A stretch of 56,385 nucleotides of DNA from Crocinitomicaceae bacterium (lineage in GTDB: Bacteria > Bacteroidota > Bacteroidia > Flavobacteriales_D > Crocinitomicaceae). The stretch is taken from positions 1 to 56,385 of the forward strand of contig JAIPAL010000005.1 of NCBI GenBank assembly GCA_021740085.1, written 5' to 3'. Shown here in pieces: positions 48,257 to 56,385 of this stretch (position 1 is the stretch's first letter; each line of letters opens with the position of its first letter). Both the position numbers and the translations under genes were made by a program. Below the pieces are notes generated by a model. The model saw only the letters and a list, made by a program, of their open reading frames with translations, was not told where the DNA came from and made no database searches.

Positions 48257-48781
48257 ATGAAAAACAATCTTCTACTCATTACAATTCTATTTTTCGGGAT
48301 TTCAGTAACTTTTGGTCAAGGACCAGAAAGAAGAGTTTATGCAACTGCAGGAAAAGTTGCAAAGTGCCAAACGTTAATTTTTGGAAGTACAAATACAGTG
48401 TCCTACACTATTGGCGAACCAATTGTAAAGTGGTCTAATGTTGATGGAAAAAGAATTCATAATGGCTTCCAACAGCCTGATCAAAATTTTGCTGTATCTC
48501 CCAACGTAACAGCTATAGCTGTTTTGGATCCTTCGTTTTTGATTTACCCAAATCCATTTAACAATTACACGATCATTCAAGGTCCTGATGAGCAAAAAGG
48601 CACCACTAAAATTCAATTGATTGACCAGAATGGAAAACTAATCAAAGAAGAACAAATGAATGATGCTAGGCATCAAATGGATTTTGAAAGTGACTTGGCA
48701 CCAGGCCAATACTTTTTAAACTTCTATAATGAAAGTGGGGCTTTTCTTCAACAAACAAAAATTATTAAGGCCTCTAATTAA
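48257..48781 (+). CDS. Small secreted protein with T9SS type A sorting domain
   Basis: 174 residues: signal peptide (MKNNLLLITILFFGISVTFGQ), about 75 residues with SYTIGEPIVKWSN and HNGFQQPDQNF, and a type A T9SS C-terminal domain starting at YPNPFNNYTII and ending PGQYFLNFYNESG...KIIKASN. The SYTIGEP/GFQQP stretch recurs in many small Bacteroidota T9SS proteins and appears to be linker-like; no separate effector domain is visible. Exported to the surface; role unknown. The 3' end abuts the decayed dioxygenase region. Confidence 0.88.
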   Translation: MKNNLLLITILFFGISVTFGQGPERRVYATAGKVAKCQTLIFGSTNTVSYTIGEPIVKWSNVDGKRIHNGFQQPDQNFAVSPNVTAIAVLDPSFLIYPNPFNNYTIIQGPDEQKGTTKIQLIDQNGKLIKEEQMNDARHQMDFESDLAPGQYFLNFYNESGAFLQQTKIIKASN

Positions 48782-53767: not shown

Positions 53768-54460
53768 TTGAAAAAACTCACTATTGCGATTGATGGATTT
53801 TCTTCTTGCGGAAAAAGTACGCTTGCCAAGGATTTAGCGAAAGAATTAAACTACATTTTCGTAGATTCAGGCGCAATGTATAGAGGAATTGCCTTTTTCG
53901 CGTTGCAAAACAAGTTGATTATCGATGGTGTTATCCATACAGACCTTTTGATTAATCGATTAGATGAAATCAACTTGGAATTTGTTTACAACAAAGAAAA
54001 ATTCGAAAGTGATCTGCTATTAAATGGTGTGAATATTTCAACTGAAATTAGAAAACCTGACGTTGCAGCCATTGTATCAAAAATAGCCGTCTTGAAAGAA
54101 GTGCGCAGCAAACTTGTTAGTACGCAACAAAAACTAGGTGAATTTGGAGGGATTATCATGGATGGCAGAGACATAGGAACCGTTGTTTTTCCAAAGGCAG
54201 ACATTAAACTATTTGTCACGGCGGATCCAAAAATAAGAGCTGAAAGGAGATTTAAAGAACTTCTTCTGAAAGACCTAAACACCTCCTTGGTGGACATCAC
54301 GGCAAATTTGGAAGAACGCGATTTAATTGATACAACAAGAAAAATAAGTCCTTTAGTAAAAGCGGAAGATGCTATCGAACTCGATAATTCCAACCTAACA
54401 AGGGAAAGTCAATTGCAATTTGTATTAGACCTCATCAAAGAACGATTTAATACGCTATGA
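53768..54460 (+). CDS. cmk: Cytidylate kinase
   Basis: 230 residues from a TTG start (MKKLTIAIDGFSSCGKST). P-loop GFSSCGKST near residue 10, then FVDSGAMYRGIAFF and DGRDIGTVVFPKADIKLF, all standard for (d)CMP kinase; length is normal. It phosphorylates CMP and dCMP for nucleotide recycling. The TTG was chosen because the P-loop follows immediately and no ATG is upstream in frame. The ATGA overlap couples it to the following lipoprotein gene. Confidence 0.96.
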   Translation: MKKLTIAIDGFSSCGKSTLAKDLAKELNYIFVDSGAMYRGIAFFALQNKLIIDGVIHTDLLINRLDEINLEFVYNKEKFESDLLLNGVNISTEIRKPDVAAIVSKIAVLKEVRSKLVSTQQKLGEFGGIIMDGRDIGTVVFPKADIKLFVTADPKIRAERRFKELLLKDLNTSLVDITANLEERDLIDTTRKISPLVKAEDAIELDNSNLTRESQLQFVLDLIKERFNTL

Positions 54461-55248
54461 AAGGTATGAATATATTTATAAAATTGAGTAGTTTATTACT
54501 CCTAATCCCCACGCTCCTATTCCTTTTTTCTTGCAAAGAAGAAGTCGAAAAAGAAGTTGTTTCAGCTAGCGAGCTACCTCAAGACAATTCCGACCTTTCT
54601 ACCTATGCAAAGAGACACATTGAAGCGGCACTGCGGATACCCGCCACGGAAAAATACACCTTAAGCATCTTAAAAAACAACTTAGATGGAGACGACAAAG
54701 AAGATGCCGTTATTTTAGTGAATCGCTATCAATTTGCGATAGATGAAGCTGGGAAATCACCAAATCCAGCAAAGAAAGCGGAATTAGGATTTATGGGGAA
54801 CTACAATTACTTTTTCTTTTTCGACGGTGGTCTCAACTTGATTTCTCCCCCCCTTGCTATTCCTTCTTCGCCGATGTTACCATTAAAAGTTAGTTTTGAA
54901 AACATCACTTCTTCCTCCTACAAAGACATTCTAATTGATTTTAGAATTCGAAATGCCAGCTACAAAGATTTCTATACCATTTCAAACCACACACCCCTTA
55001 GAATTTTTCAATGGAAGAACTTTGATGGTTTAGGGACTTCAGAAAGCGAATGTTTTATATTTGATTATGCACTTGGTTCGTATAGCGAATCAAAAGACAT
55101 CCTAATTAAAAAAGGAGTGTTAGCTACCATTCCAAAAAATGCCGATTTATTCATCTATGAGCCAACAATCACTGCAGCAAAAAAGCAAGAAACACTTTTT
55201 AATTTCTTTTATCTGCCTAAAACAGGCAAATACGTTACTAAAAAATAA
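54457..55248 (+). CDS. Hypothetical lipoprotein
   Basis: 263 residues. The N-terminus KLSSLLLLIPTLLFLFSC is a lipoprotein signal with a FSC lipobox (Cys26). The mature part begins with an acidic linker and contains NNLDGDDKEDAVILVNRYQF, resembling an FG-GAP/VCBS-like calcium loop, then a beta-rich body with FFFFDGG. I recognise no family with a known function. It overlaps cmk by 4 nt (ATGA), suggesting co-transcription. Likely periplasmic or outer-membrane anchored. Confidence 0.75.
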   Translation: MKGMNIFIKLSSLLLLIPTLLFLFSCKEEVEKEVVSASELPQDNSDLSTYAKRHIEAALRIPATEKYTLSILKNNLDGDDKEDAVILVNRYQFAIDEAGKSPNPAKKAELGFMGNYNYFFFFDGGLNLISPPLAIPSSPMLPLKVSFENITSSSYKDILIDFRIRNASYKDFYTISNHTPLRIFQWKNFDGLGTSESECFIFDYALGSYSESKDILIKKGVLATIPKNADLFIYEPTITAAKKQETLFNFFYLPKTGKYVTKK

Positions 55249-55356: not shown

Positions 55357-56289
55357 ATGAAATATTTAATTTTAGTTATATTTCTTGCGACGTTAAATAT
55401 TACTGTTGGTCAAACAGATAATAAAAAACAAGAGGTGACTTTCGGCACTTACATAGAGTCTGTTCATGGTATTGATTTTGTTAATGGTAAGTACGAAATT
55501 GTTTTTTGGATTTGGATTAATTCAAAGGATGGTATTTTTAATCCCGAAGATGAAATTGACATTAGTCATTCTATTAGCACTGAATTTTCGAACATTTACA
55601 TTGACTCTAGTACAAATGGTATGTACCACATTGAATGTAAGGTAAGTGCTACTATTTTGAACTATTTTAATGTTTCAAACTTCCCTTTTGACAAACAGAA
55701 ATTGAACTTAAATATTGAGTTTGCTAATTATTCTACCAATGATCTTAACATCAATTTGGATAAAGAACATTCCCGAATTATACCTGAATACCTAGAGGGG
55801 TGGAAAACCAAATCAAAGTTTTATAAAAAATCAATAAATTATGGGTCAAATTTCGGTAGTTTAACTTCCAAAGAATCGATTTCATACCCAACCGTGTCTC
55901 TAGAGTTGAATATAAGTAGAAATGCTATGAATTTATACTTTAAATTATTTTTAACTCTTTTACTTTCTTTCATTCTTGCATTAACTAGTCTTTTATACCC
56001 TAATGAAAATTCAGAGGAAAAGATTGGATTAATCGTAGGATCTCTATTTACTACCGTTGGTAATAAATATGTTACTGACGGTATTTTACCTATCCAAAAT
56101 TCTTTAAATTTATCTGATAAATTACACTTTCTTACTATTTTGGTGATTACTCTTATTGCAGCTTTTGCGATAATTGAACAAAGATTGAAACTTCCTGATA
56201 GAAATAAAACAGATTTTATAATGCTTTTGATTTTCTCATTATTATTTTTTGGAGGATTTCTCTTTTTCACTTTCCAAGCCATGAGTTAG
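55357..56289 (+). CDS. Pentameric ligand-gated ion channel (Cys-loop receptor-like) homologue
   Basis: 310 residues. Signal peptide (MKYLILVIFLATLNITVGQ), an extracellular beta-sandwich with the hallmark FPFDKQKLNLNIEF (109-122; FPFD pro-loop), then four helices: M1 about 193-213 (FKLFLTLLLSFILALTSLL), M2 about 222-244 (GLIVGSLFTTVGNKYVTDG, ending ILP), M3 about 255-273, M4 about 287-307. Order, spacing and landmarks match the bacterial channel GLIC, including Arg-Asn before M1 and an ILP after M2. As in other bacterial members there is no Cys-loop disulfide. M1 lacks the conserved proline. Ligand and ion are unknown. One base separates its stop from the acyltransferase gene. Confidence 0.75.
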   Translation: MKYLILVIFLATLNITVGQTDNKKQEVTFGTYIESVHGIDFVNGKYEIVFWIWINSKDGIFNPEDEIDISHSISTEFSNIYIDSSTNGMYHIECKVSATILNYFNVSNFPFDKQKLNLNIEFANYSTNDLNINLDKEHSRIIPEYLEGWKTKSKFYKKSINYGSNFGSLTSKESISYPTVSLELNISRNAMNLYFKLFLTLLLSFILALTSLLYPNENSEEKIGLIVGSLFTTVGNKYVTDGILPIQNSLNLSDKLHFLTILVITLIAAFAIIEQRLKLPDRNKTDFIMLLIFSLLFFGGFLFFTFQAMS

Positions 56290-56290
56290 C

Positions 56291-56385
56291 ATGCAGAATA
56301 TTACAAGCAGAAATAAAAGTATTGATATAACAAGGGGAATAGCGATTGTAATCATGTTTTATGCCCACCTTCTACCCCATTTTAG
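56291..56385 (+). CDS. N-terminus of a membrane acyltransferase-like protein (partial)
   Basis: Only 31 residues are in the window; the gene runs off the edge. SRNKSIDITRGIAIVIMFYAHLLPHF resembles the first helix of acyltransferase 3/DUF1624-type membrane acyltransferases, where an R-G-x-A-I-x-x-M pattern precedes the active-site histidine. It begins one base after the channel gene's stop, so the two are probably one transcription unit. Confidence 0.6.
   Translation, partial: MQNITSRNKSIDITRGIAIVIMFYAHLLPHF

Follow-up and report, generated by a model that had tools for sequence, protein, structure and literature searches.

Introduction

To our knowledge, a physiological role has yet to be established for any bacterial pentameric ligand-gated ion channel (pLGIC). 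Such channels have been known in Bacteroidota since 2004, when those of Cytophaga, including Cytophaga hutchinsonii, were reported (Tasneem et al. 2004, PMC549065). That work names PBP, Cache, and a Na+/H+ symporter as neighbors of pLGIC genes, gives the bend site of M1 as P, G, or S, and assigns an E-[R/K] motif before M2 to cation channels. The M1 proline has been described as present in all pLGICs, and conventional mutation of this residue in GLIC (P203) abolishes currents (PMC4813548). In a set of 561 sequences (Jaiteh et al. 2016, PMC4795631), M1 carried proline in 77% and Gly in 5%, and position 9' of M2 carried Phe in 13%; from this and PMC549065, neither Bacteroidota pLGICs nor a missing M1 proline is new. 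The GLIC residues at 15' and 19' (N239 and E243) are among those lining inter-subunit cavities (PMC3464191), and ELIC is opened by primary amines (PMC3119659).

Enzymes of the TmAT superfamily, which includes HGSNAT and AT3 proteins, carry DxxR and H/N motifs in TMH1, FxxxxG in TMH2, and SxxxY in TMH9, with the H/N site occupied by Asn in HGSNAT and by His in AT3 proteins, and their acceptors lie on the extracytosolic face, e.g., glycans and lipid-linked sugars (PMC12423673). Further marks of the superfamily are an Arg in TMH3 and a Gly in TMH6, both part of its core, and a fold of 10 helices. According to published abstracts, HGSNAT acetylates an amino group. Here, we analyzed a stretch of 56,385 nucleotides from a Crocinitomicaceae bacterium (hereafter, the window; genome G000), in which a pLGIC gene is followed by the start of an acyltransferase gene, and traced both genes across Bacteroidota.

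Results

The features discussed below are as follows, with residue numbers referring to the channel protein.

54457..55248, + strand: genus-wide lipoprotein on the left flank, outside the pair; adjoins the empty site in G454
55357..56289, + strand: pLGIC subunit CDS, 310 aa plus stop (ORF, Pfam, profile, and model)
55357..55413, + strand: likely signal peptide, residues 1-19 (hydrophobic N-terminus, model helix 2-13; end placed by eye)
55681..55692, + strand: Pro-loop FPFD, residues 109-112; P110 and D112 in 107/108 aligned homologs, with one gap
55840..55857, + strand: loop-C-region motif Y-x-S/T-x-F-G, residues 162-167; Y162 in 99/104, F166 in 100/104, and G167 in 104/104 distinct homologs
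55918..55920, + strand: pre-M1 Arg188, expected partner of the Pro-loop Asp; R in 108/108
55927..55995, + strand: M1 helix, residues 191-213 (AlphaFold model)
55954-55956, + strand: Thr200, at the GLIC M1-proline site (alignment)
56002..56085, + strand: M2 helix, residues 216-243 (AlphaFold model)
56059..56070, + strand: G-N-K-Y motif, 13'-16', with K15' = Lys237; K15' in 91/104 distinct homologs
56110..56187, + strand: M3 helix, residues 252-277, including His257 (AlphaFold model)
56200..56283, + strand: M4 helix, residues 282-309 (AlphaFold model)
56291..56385, + strand: start of the partner acyltransferase, 31 aa, ending at the contig edge, with a DxxRx10H motif; 84% identical across these 31 aa to the complete G006 gene

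The frame at 55357-56289, which runs from an ATG start to a TAG stop, encodes a bacterial pLGIC subunit, a cousin of the nicotinic, GABA-A, and glycine receptor channels. An earlier note on this DNA had proposed as much, and Pfam, a profile match to GLIC, AlphaFold, and Foldseek bear it out. The ligand-binding domain PF02931 matched with 28.2 bits (cutoff, 26), and the Pfam scan gave no match of the channel protein to PF02932; the NCBIfam models LIC (E 3.8e-13) and LGIC_1 (E 1.5e-6) also matched, both far under their cutoffs. In single-sequence phmmer searches against PDB sequences, the channel matched GLIC (E 0.0015) and 2vl0, listed as a Cys-loop ligand-gated ion channel (E 0.0039) and presumably ELIC. 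A 25-row family profile matched GLIC from E 4e-28 and a GLIC chimera with E 1.1e-30 over the full length, and for a 79-row profile of the nearer clade, the E values started from 2e-17 for GLIC and stood at 8e-19 for the chimera. The AlphaFold model (79-row alignment; pLDDT, 90.2) consists of nine strands of at least three residues followed by M1-M4 in the expected order, with the FPFD motif where the earlier note had placed it. The structure search that the note had set as a check returned pLGICs (GABA-A, glycine, and GLIC) for all 50 matches listed, with a TM score of 0.77 and an rmsd of 3.4 to GLIC 3eam, and the four-helix bundle was predicted. Thus the protein carries the [F/Y]PxD Pro-loop, the pre-M1 Arg, a beta-sandwich joined to a four-helix transmembrane domain, and the M2-M3 loop Pro, and has Thr200 in place of the M1 proline; since that proline is not absolute (PMC4795631), its membership among pLGICs stands.

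Counting back from P245 as 23' (the M2-M3 loop Pro, kept in 107/108 homologs), M2 reads E-2', E-1', K0', G2', G6', F9', G13', N14', K15', Y16', and D19'. The charges before M2 fit the E-[R/K] motif and make the channel probably cation-selective (PMC549065). The earlier note had read a GxILP motif after M2 and likened it to a TSNILP of GLIC; ILP is indeed there, but the end of M2 is D-G-I-L-P, i.e., GILP, and GLIC has VETNLP in the phmmer alignment. We take TSNILP to belong to ELIC, which presumably shares E-1' followed by a basic 0' with the window channel and differs from it in the M1 proline and the M2 sequence; we know of no acyltransferase partner for ELIC. With GLIC, the window channel shares the full-length profile match, the fold, the Pro-loop, the pre-M1 Arg, the M2-M3 loop P, and the 19' acid. 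At about 16-17% identity, it differs from GLIC in having Thr for the M1 Pro (Gly in most of the clade), K15' for N15', F9' for I9', and a longer loop-C region with a Y-x-T-x-F-G motif, whereas the aligned GLIC stretch is shorter and lacks the Y-x-S/T-x-F-G motif.

The copy in the sister genome G006 is 90% identical to the window channel, with dN 0.052, dS 0.327, and a dN/dS of about 0.16 (in the same comparison, 0.10 for the lipoprotein gene upstream and 0.09 for cmk), as expected for an intact gene under purifying selection. This type of channel is common in Bacteroidota, and the window gene adds a new member to a superfamily already known. Elsewhere in the window, positions 48257-48781 encode a small secreted protein with a Por_Secre_tail sorting domain, which makes a type IX secretion system likely in this organism.

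Two departures listed in the earlier note, the missing M1 proline and N-K-Y (236-238) within M2, are both present; judging from the alignment, they are traits of a large Bacteroidota clade and not peculiarities of this protein that alter the selectivity of its pore, as the note had supposed. The homolog set contained 108 rows with four duplicate pairs, and key counts refer to the 104 distinct rows; one member, L073, has its frame in two pieces (L073:7986-8927; assembly error or decay) and entered as a piece. The M1-proline site was G in 83, P in 11, V in 4, C in 3, T in 2 (the window channel and its sister copy), and I in 1. All 91 homologs with K15' carried D/E at 19', and 0/13 of the others had an acid there; His257 in M3 was found in 93/93 distinct homologs without the M1 Pro and in 0/11 with it. 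The set favors K15', because a scan with patterns including GNKY supplied 80 of its 108 rows, and the 28 pattern-free rows (15 K15' and 13 non-K) showed the same split. Among nine channels found later (G472, G501, G692, G464, G619, G638, G040, G051, and G261), K15' came with D/E19' and His257 in 3/3, and neither was found in the other six; the G464 channel has His at the pre-M1 Arg site. These residues mark clades, and shared descent therefore explains much of their correlation. By analogy, K15' is most likely engaged in a salt bridge behind the pore, because the aligned GLIC residues N239 and E243 line inter-subunit cavities (PMC3464191). An indirect search of the literature turned up no mention of the K15'/acid19' pair. 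Of the expected effects on gating or selectivity, the first holds up in that loss of the M1 proline, by comparison with GLIC mutants, probably matters for gating; the second, pore selectivity through the lysine, does not (see Discussion).

Several relatives of the channel have features of their own. The nearest kin outside the species group, in Flavobacterium (L030:2551-9296, L031:2428-9235, and L034:3027-8894), ends a tight gene run of a 161-aa protein, a DUF4407 protein, a second, weakly DUF4407-like one, a 575-aa transglutaminase-like protein (by eye), a 169-aa protein, and the channel. Downstream of this run, PADLOC marks pieces of Cas9 in L031 and genes for type I restriction-modification in L034, and the corresponding gene in L030 is HsdR-like by eye, with no PADLOC match. 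Two tandem pLGIC genes, the products of which might form mixed pentamers, occur in L039, L058, L072, and L092. In L218-L221 and other genomes of family f29, pLGIC matches lie within frames of 721 to 1074 aa, pointing to channels with large extra domains.

The acyltransferase frame begins one base past the channel stop (56291) and runs off the contig end, so that the TMH1 motif alone is present in the window. The partner in G006 is whole (329 aa) and matches PF07786 (57.5 bits) and PF01757 (48.5 bits), both above cutoff, as is the case in 4/4 partner enzymes scanned. By these domains and its motifs, the partner is a putative TmAT-superfamily acyltransferase, a relative of HGSNAT and AT3 proteins. 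In the 14 full-length enzymes, i.e., leaving aside the fragments G261 and G261b, the motif residues read from sequence were kept in 13 (TMH1 Asp), 13 (TMH1 Arg), 14 (TMH2 Phe), 14 (TMH2 Gly), and 14 (TMH9 Tyr). The family thus shares PF07786/PF01757, DxxR, FxxxxG, and SxxxY with described TmAT enzymes, with few exceptions: G619 has N and K in the TMH1 DxxR (Lys for Arg), and G431 has A for S in TMH9. The partners split at the TMH1 H/N site into those with an AT3-like His (G000, G006, and G018) and those with an HGSNAT-like Asn (the other enzymes with the site). Three partner enzymes had no NCBIfam match, and the enzyme profile had no match among PDB sequences at E 0.1; a single-sequence structure model of the enzyme reached a pLDDT of 54, too low for use.

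The earlier note had pointed out the acyltransferase coupling and had set a neighbor search across Bacteroidota as a check. The coupling is real and recurrent, with adjacent pairs in 12 genomes of five genera and three families (one with a channel remnant and two with contig-cut genes), and co-occurrence in the phylum sample is weak. Within the genus, the channel was present in 8/86 genomes and the enzyme in 7 of the 61 searched for it, which include all eight channel carriers; all seven enzymes adjoin a channel (in G452, a 5' channel remnant), with a co-occurrence p of 1.8e-8, or 2.1e-5 without the G000 enzyme fragment and the G452 channel remnant. Among the 249 genomes of the order, the channel was present in 11 and the enzyme in 11 plus the G000 fragment; both genes occurred in eight, G000 and G452 among them, and were adjacent in 8/8 (p 2.4e-10, or 2.9e-7 without that fragment and remnant). 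In the phylum sample of 395 genomes, 32 had the channel, four the enzyme, and one both (p 0.29); counting the G000 fragment, the numbers were 32, five, and two (p 0.055). G261, the genome with both in the former count, belongs to another class and has a channel and an enzyme side by side, both fragmentary at a contig end. A further family search of 48 genomes gave no new pair. The p values overstate the association, since related genomes are not independent, and the order counts lean towards the pair, since the seeds of profile A3 were five enzymes adjacent to channels and A2 holds paired channels. We therefore give more weight to contexts and trees than to values that ignore kinship and profile seeding.

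The pairs lie in eight genomic contexts: {G000, G006}, {G004, G025, G452} (grouped by eye), {G018, G464} (grouped by a shared neighbor gene seen by eye), G501, G619, G692, G638, and G261. All four orientations occur, namely channel then enzyme along one strand, enzyme then channel, convergent, and divergent. The genus keeps cmk and the lipoprotein (the latter in 56/61 genomes) around the pair site; the right flank of the window pair lies beyond its contig, and the comparison of the site uses G006. In G454, the neighbors flanking the G006 pair are present with neither channel nor enzyme between them (by eye), indicating that the two genes came or went together there. In G619, G638, and G051, an internal stop was counted in the channel matches; since the frames on the ORF maps measure 333, 345, and 344 aa, respectively, we took these stops as gene ends.

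Both genes also occur alone. Channels without the enzyme were found in G472 (same genus, K15' channel), G040, and G051, and enzymes without a channel in the flanks examined (1.5 kb for some) in G055, G535, G583, G562, G310, G195, and G431, so that neither gene needs the other everywhere; a second G261 enzyme is cut by the contig end. With the locus of the sister species left aside, we scanned 79 named K15'-type loci, taken from the best 80 among 418 relatives; the enzyme profile found none within up to 8 kb a side, and the recurrent neighbors were other genes. We thus rejected the idea that the acyltransferase is a general partner of Bacteroidota channels.

Three further observations concern individual pair sites. 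In G452 (L152:5276-5650), the 5' channel remnant runs into sorting-tail-like sequence (by eye), and the acyltransferase is whole. A ceramidase-like membrane protein (PF05875, under cutoff) lies directly 3' of the channel in G004 and G025 (L154:1680-2396 and L155:6979-7689). In two species of genus g189 (L182:5840-7549 and L179:7197-10432), grpE-dnaJ (by eye) neighbors the acyltransferase, with a channel beside the latter only in G501.

We placed 38 channels on a tree, some of them scored as unpaired from 1.5 kb of flanking DNA. It takes four gains or losses to explain the label "paired" on this tree, and well-supported branches force at least four. Pairs occur both in the K15' clade (G000/G006, G501, and G692) and in the M1-proline clade (G004, G018, G464, G619, and G638). 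On a pair of channel and enzyme trees, the former without G452 and G261 and the latter without the G261 fragment, the G018 channel groups with those of G004/G025 (support 100/98), and the G018 enzyme groups with that of G006 (93/89, just under the star threshold; the G006 enzyme was flagged as a long branch). That channel and enzyme may have been re-paired, and not only inherited together, is moderately supported by these trees. On the enzyme tree, "paired" was not clustered beyond chance (five changes; 125 of 500 shuffles were as low), as expected if pairing comes and goes. The recurrent pairing suggests, as its simplest reading, a functional tie between channel and enzyme.

Neither the K15'/acid19' pair nor an acyltransferase neighbor was found in the excerpts of Tasneem et al. 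2004 and Jaiteh et al. 2016 (PMC4795631). In a literature search on bacterial pLGIC neighbors or acyltransferase coupling, the pairing was not reported in the titles and abstract beginnings among the matches listed.

Discussion

We are aware of no measurement of a ligand, a current, or an enzymatic activity in the close family of either protein. As a tentative explanation, which we favor, the acyltransferase and the channel act as a pair, and the enzyme makes, or by acylation silences, the ligand of the channel. The channel would be a ligand-gated, probably homopentameric and probably cation-selective (from its pre-M2 charges) protein of the inner membrane, with its ligand-binding domain presumably in the periplasm. 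Drawing on acyl-CoA in the cytosol, the enzyme would acylate an acceptor that faces the periplasm, and would thereby make or silence the opener of the channel, either a small molecule or a group of the envelope. What the data show is the pLGIC fold with its motifs, the repeated adjacency of the two genes, the double absence at one empty site, and the kept TmAT motif residues in the relatives' enzymes. The ligand link, which we infer, is the weakest step: our best guess is that the enzyme changes the ligand because its acceptor and the ligand-binding domain would be on the same face. A concrete version, by analogy with the gating of ELIC by amines and the acetylation of an amino group by HGSNAT, would be N-acylation as an off- or on-switch.

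The enzyme and channel could also be functionally linked other than through a ligand, with the enzyme modifying an envelope glycan or lipid and the channel sensing something else within the same envelope or osmotic response, which we regard as possible but somewhat unlikely. The use of extracytosolic glycans and lipid-linked sugars by TmAT enzymes (PMC12423673) and the ceramidase-like gene adjoining the channel in G004 and G025 are in its favor, but it leaves unexplained why the same enzyme family stands beside two distant channel clades.

An ordinary solitary pLGIC with a chance or hitch-hiking neighbor would fit the lack of the enzyme near 79/79 other named K15'-type loci and the weak co-occurrence at the phylum level. 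It is nonetheless unlikely, given immediate adjacency in 12 genomes, about eight contexts, and four orientations, with at least four label changes on the channel tree.

We consider it more unlikely still that the pair is a mobile conflict cassette, for phage defense or competition, in which a signal set by the enzyme prompts the channel to depolarize the cell. The patchy distribution, the varied orientations and sites, the empty site in G454, and the Cas9 pieces and restriction-modification genes that PADLOC marks near the Flavobacterium kin (L031 and L034) are what such a cassette would show. However, two channels and two enzymes had no PADLOC match at E 1, nor had the L030 downstream gene and six channel neighbors, and the Flavobacterium gene run is without this enzyme. 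Pattern scans of IMG/VR viral contigs yielded 52 and 221 candidate stretches, none of them a relative of the channel or the enzyme, and among plasmids the channel query gave four records at <28% identity and the enzyme query none. On the IMG/VR, plasmid, and PADLOC results, we rejected the mobile-element and known-defense readings.

There is little to recommend a pLGIC-shaped receptor that only senses, having lost the gating bulge and conduction with its M1 proline, even though conventional mutation of P203 in GLIC abolishes currents (PMC4813548). The clade-wide conservation of G2', G6', F9', and G13' argues for a working pore, and Gly, the usual residue of the clade at the M1 site, also frees the helix; His257 accompanies the absence of Pro in 93/93 homologs as if compensating, which shared descent can also explain. 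Finally, the view of the earlier note that the M2 lysine sits in the pore and changes ion selectivity is hardly credible and was rejected, for although K lies in M2, 15' aligns with GLIC N239 of the inter-subunit cavity (PMC3464191), an acid at 19' accompanies K15' in all 91 distinct rows, and the acids at -2' and -1' are intact.

Returning to the ligand-linked pair, it is possible, if speculative, that the two genes form a signaling unit in which the acyltransferase adds an acyl mark to a periplasmic ligand, or removes it, and the nicotinic-receptor-like channel reads the mark. Channel clades would have exchanged partners, so that the two genes came together on more than one occasion. If this is true, the unit would resemble a transmitter-modifying enzyme with its receptor. 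With a recurrent enzyme partner, candidates for the natural ligand are narrowed to molecules that an HGSNAT/AT3-type acyltransferase can acylate on the periplasmic side, and the two-gene cassette with its natural empty site offers a genetic handle. Additionally, the clade with M1 Gly, the K15'/acid19' pair, and the M3 His is a natural experiment on pLGIC gating without the M1 proline. Beyond the channel itself, it is the recurrent pairing with a TmAT enzyme that makes this variant worth testing.
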